DNA from: an uncultured Granulosicoccaceae bacterium
GTDB taxonomy: Bacteria; Pseudomonadota; Gammaproteobacteria; Granulosicoccales; Granulosicoccaceae
Assembly (NCBI GenBank): GCA_938005265.1
Contig: CALLOA010000098.1
Location: forward strand, 1 to 64,000
Direction of reading: 5' to 3'
DNA length: 64,000 nt
Both the position numbers and the translations under genes were made by a program. The notes under the pieces are model-generated. The model saw only the letters and a program-made list of their open reading frames with translations. It was not told the DNA's origin and ran no database searches. This document shows positions 42,862-53,537 of the stretch, piece by piece. Each line of letters opens with the position of its first letter. Position 1 is the first letter of the stretch.

Positions 42862-43143
42862 GTGCAAGTCGCTGTCACCCGCTCTCTGATGGTAAGGGGT
42901 GAATTCAGCGCGACACAATTCTGCGACTGGATTGTGCACAGGGCAAATGTGCTGTCGCTGTCTGGTTGCGTATCCAGCCCATGTGAAGGGCTGCTGGAGA
43001 TTCGTATGACAGGTAACCCTGTCCTGCTTGAAGCCATGGAAACAGCCTGCAGCCTTGGGCCACTTGATGCTCAGGTCGAATCTATTGAGGTGCTTAAGCA
43101 TGAGGTGGTTGATACAGAGCAGGGCTTTTATCAATGCAGCTAG
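42862..43143 (+). CDS. Acylphosphatase-like protein lacking catalytic residues
   Basis: About 93 residues from a GTG 6 bases after the permease stop; the frame is also open upstream (ATG at 42799, inside the permease gene). The pattern TRSLMVRGEFSATQFCDWIV, LSLSGCVSSPCEGLLEIRMTG and CSLGPLDAQVESIEV follows the acylphosphatase fold, but the catalytic Arg of the GFR motif and the Asn of the GWVRN motif are replaced (TQFC and GCVSS). If expressed, it is a non-catalytic member or a decaying gene. It is not obviously linked to either neighbour. Confidence 0.55.
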   Translation: MQVAVTRSLMVRGEFSATQFCDWIVHRANVLSLSGCVSSPCEGLLEIRMTGNPVLLEAMETACSLGPLDAQVESIEVLKHEVVDTEQGFYQCS

Positions 43144-43180: not shown

Positions 43181-43230
43181 TCCCCATCGATCGGCATCGA
43201 TCCCCATCGAACCCCGTCGATCCACATCGA
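43181..43230. repeat. Five tandem 10-bp repeats upstream of the Rieske gene
   Basis: Five adjacent decamers (CCCCATCGAT, CGGCATCGAT, CCCCATCGAA, CCCCGTCGAT, CCACATCGAC) with consensus CCCCATCGAT, one DNA turn each. They lie 55 bp before the Rieske start codon at 43285, so they could bind a regulator on one face of the helix. Confidence 0.9.
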
Positions 43231-43284: not shown

Positions 43285-43992
43285 ATGACTACCACGCCTG
43301 TCGCACTTGCGAGAGATTTGCCCGTACAGCGAGTTATGAGAGCGCAGGTCGATGGTTGCGATCTGGCCATCTGGCGTGGAATATCCGGGCAAGTGCAGGC
43401 TTGGGAAAATCGCTGTCCTCACCGCGGTATGCGGCTGTCCTATGGCTTTGTCAGGCAAGACAGTCTGGCCTGCGCCTACCACGGTTGGCATTACAACTGT
43501 GAAGCGGTTTGCCACTATATACCGGCTCACCCCGAGCTACAGCCCCCTGCCAGTATAAAACCGGTCACCTACAGTGTTGTCGAGCATCAGGGGGTGCTGT
43601 GGGTCAATACCAGAAATGAAGCCGAGGTGCCGGAATTTCCAGAAGACAGCATTGGCATCCGGAGCATTACCTTTGATTGTCCCTTATCCGTTGCGTTCGA
43701 AGCCTGTCTTGCTGCACAACTCAGTGATGAAGCGGGGTTGAGTCTGTCGCCGCGTCAGCTTGGTGATGCTCCACTAATTCTTTCGTTTGGCAATCAACAG
43801 CAGGCTGATTCTGTTTTGCTACTTTTTCAGCCTTCGGATCTTGCAAACGTTGTTATCCATGTGCTTGCACATCATTCGTACTCTGTTGACGGTCGAATTG
43901 GCATTTCGCAATGGTGTGAGTCAGTTCGACGGCAGGCTGAACTGAATCATGAGGTAGCAATGAATGCCGGGATGGAGTGCACACATGAATAA
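43285..43992 (+). CDS. Stand-alone Rieske [2Fe-2S] protein
   Basis: A 235-residue protein. Residues about 10-110 are a Rieske domain of the ring-hydroxylating-oxygenase type, with intact ligands C44-x-H46 (RCPHRG) and C63-x2-H66 (CAYHGWH). The C-terminal 125 residues resemble no complete catalytic domain and lack iron ligands. The next gene encodes an oxygenase without a Rieske site whose start overlaps this stop by 8 bases, so this protein probably donates electrons to it. The arrangement recalls the extra Rieske domain of NdmD, which serves NdmC in methylxanthine degradation; a reductase domain is missing here. Confidence 0.85.
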   Translation: MTTTPVALARDLPVQRVMRAQVDGCDLAIWRGISGQVQAWENRCPHRGMRLSYGFVRQDSLACAYHGWHYNCEAVCHYIPAHPELQPPASIKPVTYSVVEHQGVLWVNTRNEAEVPEFPEDSIGIRSITFDCPLSVAFEACLAAQLSDEAGLSLSPRQLGDAPLILSFGNQQQADSVLLLFQPSDLANVVIHVLAHHSYSVDGRIGISQWCESVRRQAELNHEVAMNAGMECTHE

Positions 43993-44944
43993 TGGTCTCG
44001 AGTACGCAATGCATGACTGGTACCCGGTTGCAATAGAGGGCGAACTGGAAATCGGGCAATCAAGACAAACACGTTTACTGGGTGAGCAGCTGGAATTGCG
44101 CTGCGATGATAGTGTTTGCGACGCCAGTGTTTGTGACGCCAGTCAGCGTGCTGGCAATACTGGAGACTCTGTTGGCACGATTACTATTTTTTCGAATGGC
44201 CGAAAGTTGCCTGTGCAGCGTGCGTTCAACCATCTCTGGACAACGTTGTCTGAAAAACCGCGTGAGTTGTTTGCTATATCCGAAGCACAGGAACCAGGCA
44301 GGCGCCTGGTGCCTTGTGGCGTTGTCAGGGTAAAGTGTTCGCCATTGCGGGCTGTCGAGAATTTTCTGGATATCGCGCACTTTCCGTTTGTGCATACTGA
44401 TGTGTTGGGGGCGGAACCCCATACTGAAGTTTACAAGTATGACGTTCGTATCGATGATACTGATGATGAAGTGATTGCGAGTAATATCCGTTTTTATCAA
44501 CCGCAGGCATCAAAGTCTTCCTCCGGCGGTATTGAGACACAATACATCTATCGGGTCCCGGCGCCGATGGCAGCTGTGCTTTATAAAACCTGCCCGCCAA
44601 AACCCGAAGCTATGGATGTTATCGCGATTTTTGTACAACCGTTGGATGAAGAGACTTGCAATGTTTGGCCCTGGATGGCTTTGTACGATGATGTCAGTAG
44701 CATGGCCGATCTCATACAGTTTCAACAACTGATATTCCTGCAGGACCGTTCAATTCTGGAAAATCAAATACCTCGTAGACTGCCGCTCGATCCGAAAATG
44801 GAAATTCCAACCCGTGCGGACCTGACATCGGTAGCCTATCGTCGCTGGTTGAAGCGCCACAGCGCCTGGTATGGTGCGCAAATTTCAATTGATTCCCTGC
44901 AAAACCATTCGGAAGGCCCTAATGCTCACGAGTTGGCAGAATGA
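43985..44944 (+). CDS. Rieske-less ring-hydroxylating oxygenase, catalytic subunit (NdmC-like)
   Basis: A 319-residue protein. The N-terminal part has the strand order of a Rieske domain (MHDWYPVAIEG, RLLGEQLEL) but neither CxH nor CxxH. The C-terminal mononuclear-iron domain is intact: N126, D129, H132 and H137 in VENFLDIAHFPFVH, with a candidate carboxylate D244 in FLQDRSILENQ. Such oxygenases demethylate or hydroxylate small heterocycles or aromatic acids. An in-frame 15-bp tandem duplication produces VCDAS twice. It is coupled to the Rieske gene upstream and to the GST gene downstream by ATGA-type overlaps. NdmC-like function is inferred from architecture and neighbours, not from alignment scores. 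Confidence 0.82.
   Translation: MNNGLEYAMHDWYPVAIEGELEIGQSRQTRLLGEQLELRCDDSVCDASVCDASQRAGNTGDSVGTITIFSNGRKLPVQRAFNHLWTTLSEKPRELFAISEAQEPGRRLVPCGVVRVKCSPLRAVENFLDIAHFPFVHTDVLGAEPHTEVYKYDVRIDDTDDEVIASNIRFYQPQASKSSSGGIETQYIYRVPAPMAAVLYKTCPPKPEAMDVIAIFVQPLDEETCNVWPWMALYDDVSSMADLIQFQQLIFLQDRSILENQIPRRLPLDPKMEIPTRADLTSVAYRRWLKRHSAWYGAQISIDSLQNHSEGPNAHELAE
44111..44140 (+). repeat. In-frame tandem 15-bp duplication in the oxygenase gene
   Basis: AGTGTTTGCGACGCC (44111-44125) repeats as AGTGTTTGTGACGCC (44126-44140), one mismatch, encoding VCDAS twice in the position where a Rieske loop would normally be. Confidence 0.9.
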
Positions 44945-45618
44945 CAATCAGGTTTTATAACTATGTGCTTTCCGGAAACTGTTACAAGTTTCGCTTGCTT
45001 GCCAGTTTGTTAGCGGTTGAATACGAATCGGTGGCGGTTGATTTTCATCCTGGAGTTGAGCATAGATCTGAAAAATATTTACGCTTAAACCCGGCTGGAA
45101 CGTTACCCATTCTGCAAGCAGATGGTCGGGTGTTTACCGAAACACAGGCGATGTTGGTCTGGCTGGCCAGTAAACATGATAAAAGTGGTGCATGGTGGCC
45201 TGAAAAAAACAGTGACGCTATTGTTCAAGTCATGCAGTGGTTGGGTTTTGCAGCGCGTTTGAGTGCTACGGTCGGTGAACTGCGATTGCATAGTATGTTG
45301 AATAAAGATATCGATGCTGCTGCAGCCAAAGCTGGCGCGATTAAGGCACTGCGCGAATTGGAAGCTCATTTGGTGCAGCAACAAATTCGCGGAGAACAGT
45401 GGTTGGGAGCAAATTCCCCAACGGTAGCTGACATAGCCTGTTTCCCGTACACAGCACTGAGTCCCGATGCCGGTATTGAGCATGACGCTTTTCCTGCTAT
45501 TCGCCAATGGCTGTATGCGGTTCGCAGTCTGGACGGATTTGTCACCATGCCCGGTATTCATGAATTACATGAGCAGCGCGACGAACAATCACCTGCTGCT
45601 GAAACGAAAACCTCATGA
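44941..45618 (+). CDS. Glutathione S-transferase-fold protein (NdmE-like)
   Basis: A 225-residue GST. The thioredoxin-fold N-domain (MTIRFYNYVLSGNCYKFRLL, then NPAGTLPILQADGRVFTETQAM with cis-Pro and the SNAIL-like TETQA loop) is followed by the helical C-domain (EQWLGANSPTVADIACFPY). It lies between the oxygenase and the deaminase with four-base overlaps on both sides. In the caffeine-degrading bacterium Pseudomonas putida CBB5 a GST homologue, NdmE, is a structural part of the NdmCDE N7-demethylase. The same role is proposed here; free detoxification is the alternative. Confidence 0.85.
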   Translation: MTIRFYNYVLSGNCYKFRLLASLLAVEYESVAVDFHPGVEHRSEKYLRLNPAGTLPILQADGRVFTETQAMLVWLASKHDKSGAWWPEKNSDAIVQVMQWLGFAARLSATVGELRLHSMLNKDIDAAAAKAGAIKALRELEAHLVQQQIRGEQWLGANSPTVADIACFPYTALSPDAGIEHDAFPAIRQWLYAVRSLDGFVTMPGIHELHEQRDEQSPAAETKTS

Positions 45619-47000
45619 AATATACGCTGTTTAAATCCTGCGATGCCATCGTTAGTTGTGATGATGCGCATACTGTCTACAGAGACGCTGATTTGCTGGT
45701 GTCGGGTAACGCAATCAGCCGAATAGGCAGCTCAATCGCAGAACATGAGTTACCCGAAGGCACGAAGGTGATTGATGCGCGCGGGCATTTTGTCTACCCG
45801 GGGTTGGTTAATACGCACCACCATTTCTTTCAGTGTTTTGTACGTAATCATGCCTTTCTTGATTGGACCAAGCTGTCCCTGATTGAGTGGCTGGATCTGA
45901 TTTATCCGATATTCAGCCGGCTTGATGAAGAGTGTTTCTATCATGCATCGCTGGCAGCTATGGGCGAGCTTATCAAGCACGGTTGTACTACCGCGTTTGA
46001 CCATCAATACAATTTTCCGCGACATGCTGGCACACGTATTATTGACCGCCAGTTTGAAGCGGCAGACTTGTTGGGAATGCGCTTTCATGCCGGGCGCGGA
46101 GGCAATACCCTGCCAAAGTCTGAAGGCAGCACTATTCCGGATGAAATGTGTGAGTCAACAGATGAATTTATCGCTGATTGTGCACGCTTGATAGACAGCT
46201 TTCACAATCCTGATCGCTTCAGTATGCGACAGGTTGCGGTTGCACCCTGCCAACCGGTGAACTGCTACCGTGATACTTTTGTTGAATCTGTGTCACTTGC
46301 GCGAGACAAACGGGTGTTGTTGCACAGCCATGTGGGTGAAGGGGAAAGTGAAGTTATCTTTAGTCGTTTTGGCCAGCGCACAGTTGATTGGTGTGAAGCG
46401 ATCGATTTTGTTGGTGAAGACGTCTGGTTTGCGCATTGTTGGGAACTGGATCACAAGGAAATCAAGCAATTGTCGGAGACTCTTACCGGAGTTTCTCATT
46501 GCCCGGAACCCGTTTATCTGGTGGGTGCTGAAGTGACGCCACTTGCCGAGATGCAAGCCGCTGGTGTGCGCATCGGTTTGGGTGTTGATGGTGCGGCCTC
46601 GAACGATAATTCGAACCTGATGCACTGCATACACAGCGCCTATATGCTGCAGGCTTTGGTTGCAGGGCGCCATGATTTCGCTGTCCCTGAACCGCGTGAA
46701 TTCCTTCAATATGCGACGCGTGGTGGTGCTGCATTGCTGCAACGGCCGGAATTGGGCTCACTGGCTGTGGGACAGGCGGCGGATTTGTTTATAATTGATA
46801 CACGGAAAATGGAATATGTGGGAGCGCGGCATGATCCGGCGAGCCTGCCAGCTAAACTCGGTATTGGCAGCCCGGTTGATTTGACCATGATTAACGGGAA
46901 AATAGTCTGGCAGCATGGTGAGTTCGTTGGGCTGGATGAGCACAAGTTAATGGCAGATGCTGAAGCTCATGTGGAGCGTGTGGTGTACAGCAATTTGTAG
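45615..47000 (+). CDS. COG0402 amidohydrolase, probable (modified) purine deaminase
   Basis: A 461-residue metal-dependent deaminase of the guanine/8-oxoguanine deaminase/TrzN group. HxH (NTHHHFFQ, 68 and 70), HSHVGEGE, AHCWEL and GLGVDGAASND carry the metal and catalytic residues. The substrate-side segment that reads HCPSSNM in 8-oxoguanine deaminases is changed to HCPEPVYLVGAE, and the following VNQPLF-type loop is also different, so it probably acts on another purine. It is the last gene of the Rieske-oxygenase-GST operon (ATGA overlap). Confidence 0.85.
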   Translation: MKYTLFKSCDAIVSCDDAHTVYRDADLLVSGNAISRIGSSIAEHELPEGTKVIDARGHFVYPGLVNTHHHFFQCFVRNHAFLDWTKLSLIEWLDLIYPIFSRLDEECFYHASLAAMGELIKHGCTTAFDHQYNFPRHAGTRIIDRQFEAADLLGMRFHAGRGGNTLPKSEGSTIPDEMCESTDEFIADCARLIDSFHNPDRFSMRQVAVAPCQPVNCYRDTFVESVSLARDKRVLLHSHVGEGESEVIFSRFGQRTVDWCEAIDFVGEDVWFAHCWELDHKEIKQLSETLTGVSHCPEPVYLVGAEVTPLAEMQAAGVRIGLGVDGAASNDNSNLMHCIHSAYMLQALVAGRHDFAVPEPREFLQYATRGGAALLQRPELGSLAVGQAADLFIIDTRKMEYVGARHDPASLPAKLGIGSPVDLTMINGKIVWQHGEFVGLDEHKLMADAEAHVERVVYSNL

Positions 47001-47075: not shown

Positions 47076-47164
47076 TCATACTCGGCCAAAGAGCCGGGAG
47101 CCAATTTTTATTTGTAATCTTATTTACTAATTTTAGTTATTAAACAAGGGTGAGACTTTTACGC

Positions 47165-48244
47165 ATGATTAAAAAAATAGCAAAACGCCTGGCGACCGTA
47201 GCGGTAGCTGCAGTCATGGTGCAAAACGTTGCCAGTGCCGAAACGCTGGAAGTCGGCATACTGTTACCTTCACCGATTGCTGATGTGGGCTGGTCACATG
47301 CATTGGTCGCAGGTATGGATGCGGTCAAGGCCAAACATGGTGACAAGGTTAATTTCAATGTAGTTGAGAACATCCAGGAAGGCCCGGATGCAGATCGCAT
47401 CATGAACAAGATGGTAGGTGATGGTGCTGAATTTCTGTTGCTGGGATCTTTCGGTTATATGAATGGTGGTTTGAAGCTTGCCAAGCGCAACCCCGAACGC
47501 AGTTTCGTTCATGCATCAGGTTACAAAGTGGCTGACAATTTCTCACCTTTTACCGCCAAGTATTATGAAGGCGCTTATCTAATGGGAATGGCTGCAGCAG
47601 ATCTGACTAAAACCAAGAAGCTGGGTGTGGTTTCGGCGTTCGCCATTCCTGAACTGATTTCGACTATTAACGGATTTACGCTTGGCGCACGCAGCGTTGA
47701 CCCGGAGATCACCGTCGATGTTATCTGGATCAATTCCTGGTTCGATCCGGCAAAGGCGCAGGATTCAGCCAAAGCCTTGCTCGCTAATGGTGCCGATATT
47801 CTTTTCTCTAACGCACAAGACACCCCTTCGGTTGTATCTGTAGGTGAGGAAAACGGTGCTTATGTTTTTAACCTGAACAGTTCCATGAAAGAGTATGCTC
47901 CTACCAAGTATCTCGGTGTTGTGAAAACCGATTGGGCCCCGTTTTTTGTAGCGTCTGTTGATGCTCATTTGGCCGGTAATTTTGAGGGCGCCAACCAGTG
48001 GCTGGGAATGCAGGATGACGTTGTTGTGGTCGAAGACTGGAGCGATGATATTAGTGCTGAAATGAAAGACAAGATTAAGGCGAAGCAGGATGAAATTGCT
48101 TCTGGTGCTGTGCATGTCTATGACGGGCCACTGACAAATCAGGCTGGTGAAGAAGTTGTGGCTGCGGGTTCCAGGCTGGAAGATGGTGCCATTCTTGGTA
48201 TTGACTGGCATGTAGAAGGCATTAACTCTCCACTACCCAAGTAG
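47165..48244 (+). CDS. BMP-family ABC transporter substrate-binding protein
   Basis: A 359-residue periplasmic binding protein (signal peptide to about VASA). The BMP family (PnrA/Med) binds nucleosides, nucleobases or related ligands. Typical stretches are VGILLPSPIADVGWSHAL, GFGY-like SFGYMNGGL, YYEGAYLMGMAAA and VVKTDWAPFF. Together with the ATPase and two permeases downstream it forms a complete importer. The neighbouring deaminases favour a purine ligand. Confidence 0.92.
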   Translation: MIKKIAKRLATVAVAAVMVQNVASAETLEVGILLPSPIADVGWSHALVAGMDAVKAKHGDKVNFNVVENIQEGPDADRIMNKMVGDGAEFLLLGSFGYMNGGLKLAKRNPERSFVHASGYKVADNFSPFTAKYYEGAYLMGMAAADLTKTKKLGVVSAFAIPELISTINGFTLGARSVDPEITVDVIWINSWFDPAKAQDSAKALLANGADILFSNAQDTPSVVSVGEENGAYVFNLNSSMKEYAPTKYLGVVKTDWAPFFVASVDAHLAGNFEGANQWLGMQDDVVVVEDWSDDISAEMKDKIKAKQDEIASGAVHVYDGPLTNQAGEEVVAAGSRLEDGAILGIDWHVEGINSPLPK

Positions 48245-48512: not shown

Positions 48513-50078
48513 ATGCCTTCCGTTGAACCCGTTTCTGCTGATTCCGAACCACTGCTGTCGCTACGTAATATCACTAAAGCGTATCCTTCGGTTGTAGCCA
48601 ATGACAGTATCAATCTGGATGTGCATGCTGGCTCCATCCATGCAATTCTGGGTGAAAACGGTGCTGGTAAATCCACGTTAATGAAACTCGCCTATGGGGT
48701 TGTCGAGCCCGATAGTGGGGAGATTCTATGGCGCAATAAACCTGTGGACCTGCGAAGCACGGCAGCAGCTAGAAAGTTGGGCATTGGTATGGTGTTTCAG
48801 CATTTCTCGCTCTTTGAGACACTCAGTGTGGTTGAAAATATCTCGCTGACGATGCCGGGCTCAAGAAAAAAACTAGCCAGGCGTATCGCACAAGTAGGTG
48901 CTGATTATGATTTGCATGTCGACCCGGCAGCATCGGTACATTCTCTGTCGGTGGGTGAGCGTCAACGTGTGGAGATCATTCGTTGTTTGATGCAAGATTT
49001 AAAACTGTTAATTCTGGATGAGCCCACGTCGGTCTTACCACCGCAGCATGTCAGTTCACTGTTCGCAGCGTTGCGAAAGCTTCGCGATAATGGTGTGGCC
49101 ATTCTGTTTATCTCACATAAACTCGAAGAAATTCGTGCCCTTTGTGACAGCGCGACCATTCTCAGGGGTGGGAAAGTCGCTGCCACGGTAAATCCAAACG
49201 AGAAAACTGCACATGAGTTAGCCACGTTAATGATAGGACACGATATCCCGCAGGTGGAAGCACGGGCGAATCAGGTAGATCTAAACAAGCCTTTACTGGA
49301 GTTGTCTGCTGTTAGTGTCAAGAGCAGTGACCCCTTCGGCACTGATCTGAAGAACATCAATCTTTCCGTGCATGCCGGCGAAATTGTCGGTGTAGCCGGT
49401 GTGTCAGGTAATGGGCAGCAGGAACTTTCCCGTTTGATCTCCGGAGAACATGTTGAAACATCTGCGGCTTTTGATTGCATTCGCATGATGGATAAACCGG
49501 TTACGTACCTTGGTGCTGTAGATCGGCGACAGCTTGGCTTTGCTTTCGTGCCGGAAGAACGATTGGGGCGCGGTGCGGTACCGCCAATGTCGCTATCCAA
49601 AAATTCCTTGTTAACGGCCTCCGACAAGGGGATGCATAGAAAAGGTTTTCTTAATAAGCCACGCATGGATGAATTCACGCAACACTGTATCAAGGAGTTT
49701 GATGTGCGTTGTGGTGGTGTGGAGGCTGAGGCTACGTCTCTCTCGGGTGGTAATCTGCAAAAGTTTATTGTGGGCCGCGAGCTTTCATTGCAACCCAAGC
49801 TCTTGTTTCTTTCACAACCGACTTGGGGAGTGGATATTGGTGCGGCGACTGCCATCCGGCAACGGTTGCTTGATTTGCGTGATGCTGGTGTCGCCATATT
49901 GGTAATCTCAGAAGAGCTGGAGGAGTTATTTGAAATTACTGACAGGGTTTATGTCATCCGAAGTGGCACATTGTCACCTTCGCTAGTCACGTCTGATGTG
50001 ACACCAAACGATATTGGCAAATACATGATTGGCGAGCAACAACAAGCAAGCGTTACGGGGGGATCTCATGCAACTTAG
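48513..50078 (+). CDS. ABC importer ATPase, double domain (nucleoside/sugar type)
   Basis: A 521-residue protein with two ABC domains: the first has GENGAGKSTLM, the LSVGERQRVEII signature and LLILDEPTSVL; the second has the weak P-loop GVSGNGQQEL, signature LSGGNLQKF and LFLSQPTWGVD. The degenerate second site is normal for the CUT2/BMP family. It overlaps the first permease gene. Confidence 0.93.
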   Translation: MPSVEPVSADSEPLLSLRNITKAYPSVVANDSINLDVHAGSIHAILGENGAGKSTLMKLAYGVVEPDSGEILWRNKPVDLRSTAAARKLGIGMVFQHFSLFETLSVVENISLTMPGSRKKLARRIAQVGADYDLHVDPAASVHSLSVGERQRVEIIRCLMQDLKLLILDEPTSVLPPQHVSSLFAALRKLRDNGVAILFISHKLEEIRALCDSATILRGGKVAATVNPNEKTAHELATLMIGHDIPQVEARANQVDLNKPLLELSAVSVKSSDPFGTDLKNINLSVHAGEIVGVAGVSGNGQQELSRLISGEHVETSAAFDCIRMMDKPVTYLGAVDRRQLGFAFVPEERLGRGAVPPMSLSKNSLLTASDKGMHRKGFLNKPRMDEFTQHCIKEFDVRCGGVEAEATSLSGGNLQKFIVGRELSLQPKLLFLSQPTWGVDIGAATAIRQRLLDLRDAGVAILVISEELEELFEITDRVYVIRSGTLSPSLVTSDVTPNDIGKYMIGEQQQASVTGGSHAT

Positions 50079-51159
50079 ATTCGAGAAACGCCTGCATCAA
50101 TCAAAAATCATGTTGTTGGCGGCACCCTTCATAGCTATCGCTCTGTCGGTTGTCTTGTCCTGCATACTTCTGGTGGTATTAAAAAAGCCGATACTGCTCA
50201 CCTTTCATTCCTTTTTTATCGCACCCTTTGAAAATTTTTATTCGATTACCGAGATCTTTCTGAAGTTCGGGCCATTGCTGTTGATAGCCCAGGCGTTGGC
50301 TGTTGGATTTCGCGCAAAAATCTGGAATATCGGTGCCGAAGGGCAGATGGTAATCGGTGCGATTGCTGCCAGTGCAGTGCCTGTTTATTTTGTAGACAGC
50401 ACTTCAGGTTGGTTGTTGCCTGCGATGATTGTACTGGGTGCCCTTGGGGGGATGGCCTGGGCCGCAATTGCGGCTTTCCTGCGCACTCAATTTAACGCTA
50501 ACGAGATTCTGGTTACGCTGATGTTGACCTCAATTGCTTTGCAATTGTTGTATTTCCTGCTGCTTGGCCCTTGGAAAGATCCGATGGGTTTTAATTTTCC
50601 ACAAACGGTCATGTTTCAGGATGAGGCATTATTTCCGGCGTTGTTTTCAGGGGTGCGCTTAAACGTATCCATTATATTTCCAATCCTGTTCACCATTGCG
50701 GTGTGGCTGTTTATGGAAAAGCATTATGGCGGCTATAAACTGGTGGTGGGTGGTCTGGCACCATCGGCTGCCGGCTATGCAGGTTTCAGTTCCAAAAAAG
50801 CTGTTTGGGGCAGCTTGTTGCTGGCAGGTTTTGCCGCCGGTATCGCCGGTATGAGTGAAGTCGCGGGACCTATCGGTCAGTTGCAACGTTCGATGACCTC
50901 CGGCTACGGTTACTCGGCAATTATTGTTGCCTATCTGGGTGCGTTGAACCCGATCGGCATTGTGTTTGCCGCTTTTTTTCTTGCTGTCCTACATATCGGA
51001 GGGGACGTAGCACTGGTGTCAGCGGGCCTGCCGATTAGTGCCGTTCACATATTTCAAGGAATGATATTAATTTTCTATTTGTCCGCTTATGCTTTTGTTA
51101 ATTATCGTCTGCGAGTTGTTCAGCCTGTAACTCAACCTGATTCGGCGGTCTCATCATGA
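50068..51159 (+). CDS. BMP-type ABC importer permease 1
   Basis: A 363-residue membrane protein of the BPD_transp_2 family with about ten hydrophobic segments; the motif NIGAEGQMVIGAIAA is typical for this importer class. I start it at the ATG at 50068, which overlaps the ATPase stop by 11 bases. The second permease overlaps its end by four bases. Confidence 0.9.
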   Translation: MQLRFEKRLHQSKIMLLAAPFIAIALSVVLSCILLVVLKKPILLTFHSFFIAPFENFYSITEIFLKFGPLLLIAQALAVGFRAKIWNIGAEGQMVIGAIAASAVPVYFVDSTSGWLLPAMIVLGALGGMAWAAIAAFLRTQFNANEILVTLMLTSIALQLLYFLLLGPWKDPMGFNFPQTVMFQDEALFPALFSGVRLNVSIIFPILFTIAVWLFMEKHYGGYKLVVGGLAPSAAGYAGFSSKKAVWGSLLLAGFAAGIAGMSEVAGPIGQLQRSMTSGYGYSAIIVAYLGALNPIGIVFAAFFLAVLHIGGDVALVSAGLPISAVHIFQGMILIFYLSAYAFVNYRLRVVQPVTQPDSAVSS

Positions 51160-52082
51160 GTACTCTTGAATTTTTCCTTGCCGGTACGCTAAGTGCTGCG
51201 ACAGTTTTTCTTTTGGCAGCCCTTGGTGAGCTGGTTGTTGAGAAGTCAGGGTTATTGAATCTGGGTGTGGAAGGGATGATGGCTGTCTCGGCTGCTGTTG
51301 GTTTTGTGGTAACTTTTGAAACCGGTAGCCACATCTGGGGTTTTGCACTGGCCGGTTTGTCCGGAGTCGTTATTTCCATGGTGTTTGCTGTGGTCGCCAT
51401 TACTTTTCTGGCCAATCAGGTAGCAACAGGTCTGGCGGTGGGAATCATGGGCTTGGGTTTATCTGCGTTGATCGGACGCGAATACGAAAGCCGTACAATT
51501 ACCTCTCCGGCGGATCTTGTTATCCCTTATCTAAGCGACCTGCCGCTGCTCGGGCCGGTTTTGTTTCAGCAAAATATAGTGGTGTATCTGACTTTTTTAC
51601 TGGCAGTTGTTATTGGCTACACCCTGACCCATACACGTTTGGGGTTGGCAATACGGTCCGTTGGAGAGCAGCCGTCTGCCGCACATGCTCTGGGTTTCCC
51701 GGTTTATCTGATTCGTTACGCAACTGTAGCGTTCGGTGGTCTACTGGCAGGGTTTGCGGGTGCTTATGCATCCACTATTTACACACCTTTGTGGGCTGAT
51801 GGCATGATTGCCGGGCGTGGCTGGATTGCGGTAGCGCTGGTAGTTTTTGGGACCTGGAAAACCGGACGTGTAGCGTTTGGTGCTTTATTGTTCGGAATGA
51901 TTTCCTTAGGGGAGCTTATAGCTCAGTCGATGGGAGCCAGAATTCCCTCGCAATTACTCTCAAGTCTGCCATACATCGTCACGATAATTGTTCTGGCCAT
52001 GATTTCTACCAATAAAGCTCGAATGAAATTGCATGCGCCATTTTCCCTCGGTGAGGTTTATGACGGATCAGAAGGGCGATAA
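51156..52082 (+). CDS. BMP-type ABC importer permease 2
   Basis: A 308-residue partner permease; NLGVEGMMAVSAAVGF and RSVGEQPSAAHALG are characteristic of the BMP/ribose permease family. It is co-translated with permease 1 through an ATGA overlap and is the last gene of the operon; the next gene is convergent. Confidence 0.9.
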   Translation: MSTLEFFLAGTLSAATVFLLAALGELVVEKSGLLNLGVEGMMAVSAAVGFVVTFETGSHIWGFALAGLSGVVISMVFAVVAITFLANQVATGLAVGIMGLGLSALIGREYESRTITSPADLVIPYLSDLPLLGPVLFQQNIVVYLTFLLAVVIGYTLTHTRLGLAIRSVGEQPSAAHALGFPVYLIRYATVAFGGLLAGFAGAYASTIYTPLWADGMIAGRGWIAVALVVFGTWKTGRVAFGALLFGMISLGELIAQSMGARIPSQLLSSLPYIVTIIVLAMISTNKARMKLHAPFSLGEVYDGSEGR

Positions 52083-52145: not shown

Positions 52146-53537
52146 TCAATTTTGTACGGACTCAAGTGGTTGAAAACGGCGCGCTATAGATTTGTGTTGC
52201 GTCAGCATATCCTGGATTCGGGGTGATACCAGCTCACCGTTTTGTACAATGATGTTACCGTTGACAACCGTATGCCAGGCCGACGTCGGGCCACATCGCA
52301 GCCAACCTTCAATAGGGTCATTCAATACACCTGCGTGACCCACTCCGTCCATTTTCCATACAGCTACGTCACCTGCAGCACCTACTGACAGCTCGCCGAT
52401 TTCGCCCACACGACCAAGGCAGCCAGCGCCGCCACGCGTTGAAATTTCCAGCGAGAGCCTTGCATTCATGGCATCCGCTCCTGAAACCAGCTTACCTTGC
52501 AGCATCGCAAGCCTTGCTTCCTGCCACATTGAAGCGGCATCTGCCGATGATGAGCCATCGCAACCCAGGCCTACGGGGCAACCTGCATGATGCAATTTGA
52601 CTGTCGGTGCCAGTCCGGAAGCCAGAATCATATTCGAGCTCGGGCAATGCGCAACTCCGACGCCTGCCTGGCCAAGCCTCACTATCTCGGTGTCATCGGG
52701 TTTAACAACATGTGCACCCCAGGTGCGATCATTCATCCAGCCCACATCTTCAAGTAACTCGACTGGCCGCATACCAAAGGTACGCAGAGCGTACTCTGTG
52801 TCTTCGTCGTTTTCAGCCAAGTGGGTGTGTAGCCTCACGTCCAGCTTGCGGGCAAGCTCTGCCGTTTCTTTCATTAAATGTGGCGTTACAGAAAACGGTG
52901 AACAGGGTGCCAGGGCTATTTTGATCATGGCGTTATGGGAATCGTCGTGCCAGCGTTTTACATGTGATTCGGATGCGCTGAGTATGTCCTCTTCCTGCAT
53001 TACAGCGTTGTCGGGTGGAAGACCGCCATCTTTTTGTGACAGCGACATGGAGCCATAGGTGGGGTGAAAACGCATGCCGAGTTCTTGTGCCGCCTTGATT
53101 TCGGCCGACAATAAATCACCGGCACGGGGTGGGTGTAAATAGTGATGATCAGAGCTGGTCGTGCAGCCAGACAAAGCAAGTTCTGCAAGACCAATCCAGG
53201 CCGCGGTATACACAGCTTCTTCGTCCAGGTTATCTGTCCATAAGGGGTAGAGCGTTTGCAGCCAGCCGAACAAAGGTTTGGATGTCATGGGTGTGTAGGC
53301 ACGGGTCAGATTCTGATAGAGATGATGATGAGTGTTTATCAGGCCCGGGGTCACCAGGCAATCCTGTGCGGATAGCACCTTGTTGCCGTGTGGCATGGAA
53401 TCGTTGATTCCACCTATCGCGACTATTACGCCGTTAGTGATAGCTAGCCACCCGCTGGTGATTTCGCGCCGGTCCTTGTCAACAGTTGCGACCAGGTTTG
53501 CGTCTTTGATTAACAGGTCGGCGGTTTGGTTATTCAC
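52146..53537 (-). CDS. 8-oxoguanine deaminase-like amidohydrolase
   Basis: A 463-residue COG0402 enzyme. Compared from memory with the characterised Pseudomonas 8-oxoguanine deaminase (Pa0142), key stretches agree closely: NTHHHLYQNLTRAYTP, DHHYLHPP, RFHPTYGSMSLSQKDGGLPP, IALAPCSPFSVTP, LHTHLAEND, HCPSSNMILASG and GLGCDGSSS. It probably deaminates 8-oxoguanine or a related 2-aminopurine/isocytosine to a urate-type product. It lies convergent to the BMP importer and 91 bases after the flavin amine oxidase gene on the same strand. Confidence 0.9.
   Translation of the reverse strand: MNNQTADLLIKDANLVATVDKDRREITSGWLAITNGVIVAIGGINDSMPHGNKVLSAQDCLVTPGLINTHHHLYQNLTRAYTPMTSKPLFGWLQTLYPLWTDNLDEEAVYTAAWIGLAELALSGCTTSSDHHYLHPPRAGDLLSAEIKAAQELGMRFHPTYGSMSLSQKDGGLPPDNAVMQEEDILSASESHVKRWHDDSHNAMIKIALAPCSPFSVTPHLMKETAELARKLDVRLHTHLAENDEDTEYALRTFGMRPVELLEDVGWMNDRTWGAHVVKPDDTEIVRLGQAGVGVAHCPSSNMILASGLAPTVKLHHAGCPVGLGCDGSSSADAASMWQEARLAMLQGKLVSGADAMNARLSLEISTRGGAGCLGRVGEIGELSVGAAGDVAVWKMDGVGHAGVLNDPIEGWLRCGPTSAWHTVVNGNIIVQNGELVSPRIQDMLTQHKSIARRFQPLESVQN

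Follow-up and report, generated by a model that had tools for sequence, protein, structure and literature searches.

Gene content of the locus and its relatives

In the window, a stretch of 64,000 nucleotides from an uncultured Granulosicoccaceae bacterium, three adjoining genes encode a Rieske protein, an oxygenase subunit without Rieske ligands and a GST-like protein, and genes for an amidohydrolase and a purine-type importer lie downstream (Table 1). The catalytic subunit was counted from the ATG at 43985; a further in-frame ATG is present at 43964, and the start in relatives is the equivalent of 43985. The Rieske gene overlaps the catalytic gene by eight bases, as the original prediction had stated, and lies in a different frame; in relatives the overlap is usually four bases, the pattern of translationally coupled genes. 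The acylphosphatase-like ORF upstream of the Rieske gene belongs to an ORF cluster that recurs in seven loci, and between the two genes, at 43181-43230, a 10-bp unit, TCCCCATCGA, occurs in five imperfect copies. PADLOC gave no match.

Table 1. Coordinates, strands and supporting evidence of the features in the window.
Feature	Position	Strand	Evidence
Acylphosphatase-like small protein, possible first operon gene	42889..43143	+	Pfam Acylphosphatase 6e-7
Rieske subunit, apparently degenerate alpha subunit, 235 aa	43285..43992	+	Pfam Rieske 6e-19; AF2 pLDDT 93.7
Rieske ligands C44, H46, C63, H66	43414..43482	+	Invariant in 23 sequences
Putative vestigial catalytic domain of the Rieske subunit, without iron ligands	43636..43989	+	hhalign and structure match
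Rieske-less oxygenase subunit (NdmC-like), 319 aa	43985..44944	+	Pfam VanA_C 3.3e-20, no Rieske match; AF2 model
15-bp tandem duplication, within the loop that stands in for the cluster-binding segment	44111..44143	+	TRF 15 bp x 2.2
D129 (bridging Asp), H132, H137, mononuclear iron site	44369..44395	+	Invariant in 56 proteins and 4 outgroups
D254, iron carboxylate ligand	44744..44746	+	Invariant; aligned with the NdmA Asp of LVFAEDKPVIESQ
GST-like third subunit (NdmE-like)	44941..45618	+	GST Pfam domains; in 23 loci
Amidohydrolase with NdmH (N2,N2-dimethylguanine hydrolase) residue signature	45615..47000	+	13/13 poNdmH residues
BMP/PnrA-type substrate-binding protein (purine nucleoside or base uptake)	47150..48244	+	Pfam Bmp 3.8e-40; synteny
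ABC ATPase and two permeases, same importer as the BMP protein	48513..52082	+	ORFs; conserved order
Second amidohydrolase, 8-oxoguanine deaminase	52146..53537	-	588 vs 532 bits cut-off; just past the operon

A scan of GTDB genomes yielded 23 relatives with 57-69% identity, hosted by Granulosicoccaceae, Rhizobiaceae, roseobacters and others. The Rieske gene was located directly upstream of the catalytic gene in 22 of these 23 loci and the GST gene downstream in all of them; at one locus (L017) no Rieske gene was found and the GST gene was truncated. The order Rieske-catalytic-GST was also observed on p42c of Rhizobium etli CFN 42 (at about 87-95 kb) and on Shinella p1. At some level 269 plasmid records matched, and a strong match was obtained in 15 of 398 sampled genomes of the phylum. 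The GST gene, overlooked in the first reading, is a conserved third partner; its product is 47% identical to NdmE-type proteins of Sinorhizobium and 39% identical to those of P. putida.

As the two genes overlap by eight bases in different frames, the split might be taken for an assembly error or for a pseudogene pair derived from one full-length gene. The relatives, however, already refute this: two separate genes are present in 22 of 23 related loci as well as on the Rhizobium and Shinella plasmids, which excludes both a pseudogene origin of the pair and the sequencing frameshift that the original prediction had itself raised as an objection. Moreover, a joined gene would contain the N-terminal strands twice, as the catalytic subunit brings its own set. 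We assign this explanation practically no probability.

Among 20 surveyed regions three layouts were found, namely Rieske-catalytic-GST alone, a Rieske-reductase fusion, and a separate reductase after the GST gene (L089). In the tree a branch with weak support sets the fused layout on one side, and good support was obtained for the subclade of stand-alone types that contains the window's own sequence. Several regions showed further arrangements. A kombucha plasmid, Komagataeibacter nataicola pKNA08 (L035, 2917-9468), carries the split cassette twice, together with a full-length oxygenase and a separate PDR/VanB reductase, and in one of its Rieske subunits the second ligand Cys is lost (GVYHGW); it is possibly a tea-derived methylxanthine island. 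One Rieske-reductase fusion and one GST serve two tandem Rieske-less catalytic subunits in L032 (7965-9776) and also in L084, L085 and L086. On Roseicitreum antarcticum pRA01 (L033, 7971-8837) a lone Rieske-less catalytic subunit is annotated as '(2Fe-2S)-binding protein', and no annotated Rieske or GST gene is present near it.

Distribution of the two metal centres over two chains

The catalytic subunit had been described as a ring-hydroxylating oxygenase that has lost its own Rieske cluster, and the loss was borne out. Within residues 1-110 the only cysteines and histidines are H10, C40, C45, C50 and H83, and a search for CxH...CxxH along the whole protein found none, so that the ligands have not moved elsewhere in the chain. 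The Rieske ligands are missing in 56 of 56 aligned Rieske-less proteins, while all four full-length outgroups carry C-H-C-H. Because these 56 proteins are alike, a frameshift and a chance loss can both be dismissed as the cause of the absence. The 'ring-hydroxylating' part of the description is a generic label; the nearest characterised kind of catalytic subunit is the N7-demethylase NdmC.

The mononuclear iron site had been called complete, with D129, H132, H137 and a candidate D244. The first three residues were confirmed, but residue 244 is Ile and the real fourth residue is D254. D129, H132, H137 and D254 are invariant in an alignment of 24 sequences, and they are kept in all 56 Rieske-less proteins as well as in the four full-length outgroups. 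Among solved structures, the closest relatives are SxtDIOX/SxtT and the methylxanthine demethylases NdmA/NdmB. An AF2 model built from the family alignment (pLDDT 76.5, low at residues 134-145 and at the C-terminus) matched SxtT over residues 2-298 (Z 26.1, 266 aligned) and NdmA over residues 2-294 (Z 22.5). The N-terminal strands of an alpha subunit, also part of the original prediction, are thus present in the model.

The 15-bp tandem duplication is real and occupies the position of the lost loop. Its copies (44111-44125 and 44126-44140) are identical in 14 of 15 bases, and none of 300 codon shuffles produced a repeat as good. As a scar of the ligand loss it was rejected, since it occurs in 0 of 23 close relatives. 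Being missing from all of these, the duplication is younger than the loss of the Rieske cluster and represents a recent insertion into a loop that was already shortened.

The adjoining upstream gene carries all four Rieske ligands (numbered from the ATG at 43285). It had been proposed to encode exactly a Rieske domain; the Rieske centre is indeed there, but the model spans a whole alpha subunit. It aligned over residues 1-233 with residues 7-313 of dicamba monooxygenase (Z 19.8, 3.0 Å, 229 residues) and also matched SxtT/GxtA and NdmA, and the best 50 structural matches contained no Rieske ferredoxin. In an hhalign comparison the C-terminal half scored 32.2 against the partner's catalytic domain, and the highest of 100 column shuffles reached 18.7; this significant score needed NdmD-type relatives in the profile, and an earlier profile comparison with fewer sequences was not significant. 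Against the full-length outgroups (n = 4, probably too few sequences) hhalign gave no match. In an alignment read by eye, the partner's iron-binding helix is seemingly kept in the Rieske subunit without its Asp and His ligands.

The weak sequence likeness of the C-terminal half to catalytic domains, together with the unmatched small full-length set, would suit a Rieske subunit that is a mere soluble ferredoxin-like shuttle, its C-terminal half being an unrelated docking domain and not a decayed catalytic domain. Given that the full-length model aligned with whole alpha subunits and that the hhalign score lay above all column shuffles, we consider such a shuttle quite improbable. A decayed alpha subunit agrees better with the models: the Rieske subunit is predicted to have the alpha-subunit fold over both domains, though its catalytic domain is incomplete, and the gene looks like a whole alpha subunit that has decayed, with the Rieske centre retained and the iron ligands lost. 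The fold, a Rieske-like N-terminal domain followed by a helix-grip catalytic domain, was found in the models of both subunits (VIA-align). The mark of a canonical alpha subunit, a Rieske cluster and a mononuclear iron in one chain, is present in neither. The two genes look reciprocally degenerate, each having apparently kept one centre and lost the other. Both subunits may descend from one duplicated alpha subunit, although their common sequence is not long enough to build a tree.

Comparison with NdmCDE and the supply of electrons

According to reviews, NdmC of Pseudomonas putida CBB5 has no Rieske cluster, and its partner NdmD is a reductase with the Rieske domain fused to it (PMC4408171). 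NdmC is reported to depend on this domain and on the GST-like NdmE (PMC4408171, PMC10380055), and the NdmCDE complex is reported to be 3:3:3 (PMC10380055). The principle of a separated Rieske centre is therefore already known from NdmC/NdmD. The system in the window resembles this 7-methylxanthine N7-demethylase in several respects: the catalytic subunit lacks Rieske ligands and has an intact iron triad, the Rieske centre with all four ligands, the predicted donor, resides on another, genetically linked chain, a gene for a GST-like partner of the NdmE type, required in NdmCDE, is present, and the context is that of purines. However, the Rieske gene of the window encodes a stand-alone protein, whereas the NdmD type comprises 585-588 aa and is fused to an FMN/NADH/ferredoxin reductase, and the clade of the window is distinct and linked to an NdmH-like deaminase. 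As the defining fusion to a reductase is absent, we set the system apart from the members of NdmCDE.

Clusters of the NdmCDE type were found on P. putida pKF715A and Sinorhizobium pSymA. The catalytic subunit of the window is about 43% identical to their Rieske-less subunits, and the Rieske subunit of the window could be aligned with the NdmD-type proteins of these clusters over residues 11-215 of the latter. Since the alignment covers this range, the NdmD-type homologues have the extra middle domain between Rieske domain and reductase as well.

In the chlorophyllide a oxygenase of Micromonas the two centres lie on different chains. This enzyme of Micromonas pusilla, made of two polypeptide chains (PMC9615114), resembles by its description the system in the window in spreading the functional unit over two chains, but it is algal and its substrate is unrelated. 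The single-chain alpha-3 enzymes NdmA/NdmB, SxtT/GxtA and dicamba monooxygenase share the fold but hold both cofactors in each chain. In NdmA the distance from Rieske centre to iron is 44.7 Å within a chain and 12.1 Å between chains (PMC10380055), and in such single-chain enzymes electrons pass between neighbouring subunits, over 12 Å as against about 45 Å (PMC12445004, PMC10380055). Because the transfer runs between neighbouring subunits, splitting a Rieske oxygenase is feasible.

We consider it likely that 43285-45618 encodes a split Rieske N-demethylase functioning as NdmCDE does, in an operon for N-methylated guanine-type bases. The catalytic subunit would hold the mononuclear iron and the substrate, and the upstream Rieske protein very likely provides its electrons, which would pass from the [2Fe-2S] cluster across the subunit interface to the catalytic iron. 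The GST-like protein would keep both redox subunits together, each of which looks like a whole alpha subunit minus the half retained by its partner.

No reductase was found in the operon, and the 235-aa Rieske protein has no reductase domain. At a threshold of 1e-10, 4 of the 15 genomes searched gave no match to a VanB/NdmD-type reductase, cassette-bearing genomes among them. Among these four was the L023 genome, whose contig is titled complete chromosome; other flavin reductases are present in it. As the operon lacks a reductase and in some genomes none of the VanB/NdmD type was found, the electron donor of this clade differs from that of NdmCDE. In the window's own genome, a VanB-like match on contig C2 was rejected as the reductase because it forms the C-terminal portion of a P450-like protein of 735 aa, and a match on C84 was discarded since its sequence reads like BoxA. 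The 735-aa protein (L122, 3174-5381) is seemingly a P450 fused to a VanB-type reductase. A protein on C54 with FNR and a C-terminal ferredoxin is an unproven candidate.

The purine setting and the proposed pathway

A residue set has been published for poNdmH, an N2,N2-dimethylguanine hydrolase (PMC13054789). It consists of the catalytic machinery (Q74, E243, H275, D326) together with substrate-flanking and CQNN residues. All 13 residues (Q74, W85, W93, Y98, Y133, N165, C213, Q214, N217, E243, H275, P300, D326) were matched in the amidohydrolase that follows the GST gene, at a constant offset of -1 from the poNdmH numbers, and they recur in 14 aligned orthologues from other loci. The set is not carried by the true 8-oxoguanine deaminase just beyond the operon, by two similar proteins (L081, L085) or by two guanine deaminases. 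From its sequence, the product of 45615-47000 is thus predicted to be an NdmH-like deaminase. No Rieske partner is mentioned in the NdmH paper (PMC13054789), and among the papers searched none joins 'Rieske' with either 'dimethylguanine' or '8-oxoguanine deaminase'.

A close (type A, >=65%) oxygenase and the NdmH-like gene occurred in identical genomes, in 7 of 57 relatives and in 5 of 398 members of the phylum; the remainder had neither, and no genome had one alone. The Fisher p values of 4e-9 (57 genomes) and 1e-11 (398) are inflated by a single linked operon, and because of this linkage the co-occurrence is not independent evidence. In a sister clade a guanine deaminase takes the place of the NdmH-like gene (L011). 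Genes for XdhABC, guanine deaminase, ureidoglycolate lyase and xanthine permease, all over curated cut-offs, were found beside relatives, and xanthine dehydrogenase homologues were detected in all 10 searched genomes, in 8 of them over the model cut-off, including the window's own.

The split enzyme might instead hydroxylate the purine ring at C8 or C2, like HpxD on xanthine, with the adjoining deaminase making urate. HpxD-annotated proteins are distantly related to the catalytic subunit (about 28%), and the deaminase scores best with the 8-oxoguanine deaminase model. Its score is, however, 407.9 bits against a cut-off of 532 for NF006055 (NCBIfam equivalog), and it has the NdmH residues instead of those of an 8-oxoguanine deaminase; we therefore rejected that assignment. 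A true 8-oxoguanine deaminase is encoded separately at 52146-53537, and the nearest characterised relatives with a split layout are N7-demethylases. Moreover, as the cassette genomes hold xanthine dehydrogenase homologues, a further xanthine hydroxylase seems unnecessary. Ring hydroxylation is therefore, in our view, unlikely, and N-demethylation of a methylated guanine or xanthine is favoured by the NdmH signature, the importer and the purine neighbours.

Methylated guanines come from RNA turnover. N-methylated guanines including N2,N2,7-trimethylguanine are also found in marine invertebrates (PMC5793054). The operon probably strips methyl groups off modified guanine-type bases: most likely it would import N-methylated bases of this type and then degrade them to xanthine, with (di)methylamine released by the NdmH-like deaminase and a ring N-methyl group cleaved off by the oxygenase in the form of formaldehyde. 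More tentatively, two reciprocally decayed copies of one alpha subunit and a GST-like holder might make up an N-demethylase that is obligately hetero-oligomeric and has no dedicated reductase. Together with the NdmH-like deaminase, this enzyme might constitute a bacterial pathway, so far undescribed, for guanines that carry methyl groups both on N2 and on a ring nitrogen. Such a pathway could convert, for example, the ascidian natural product N2,N2,7-trimethylguanine to xanthine, dimethylamine and formaldehyde; this fuller account is possible, though we hold it to be somewhat doubtful.

What is new here is the tight linkage of the split oxygenase to a deaminase with the NdmH signature and to a purine-type transporter. 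Rieske oxygenases need two metal centres about 12 Å apart across a subunit interface, and a natural pair with one centre per chain allows each half of catalysis to be produced, mutated and studied on its own. In the hosts of the family, namely Rhizobium, roseobacters and Granulosicoccaceae, the catalytic subunit is annotated as 'aromatic ring-hydroxylating dioxygenase', which probably names the wrong reaction. The linkage to an NdmH-like deaminase gives the family a concrete substrate class to test, and the recently described dimethylguanine hydrolases a genomic setting.
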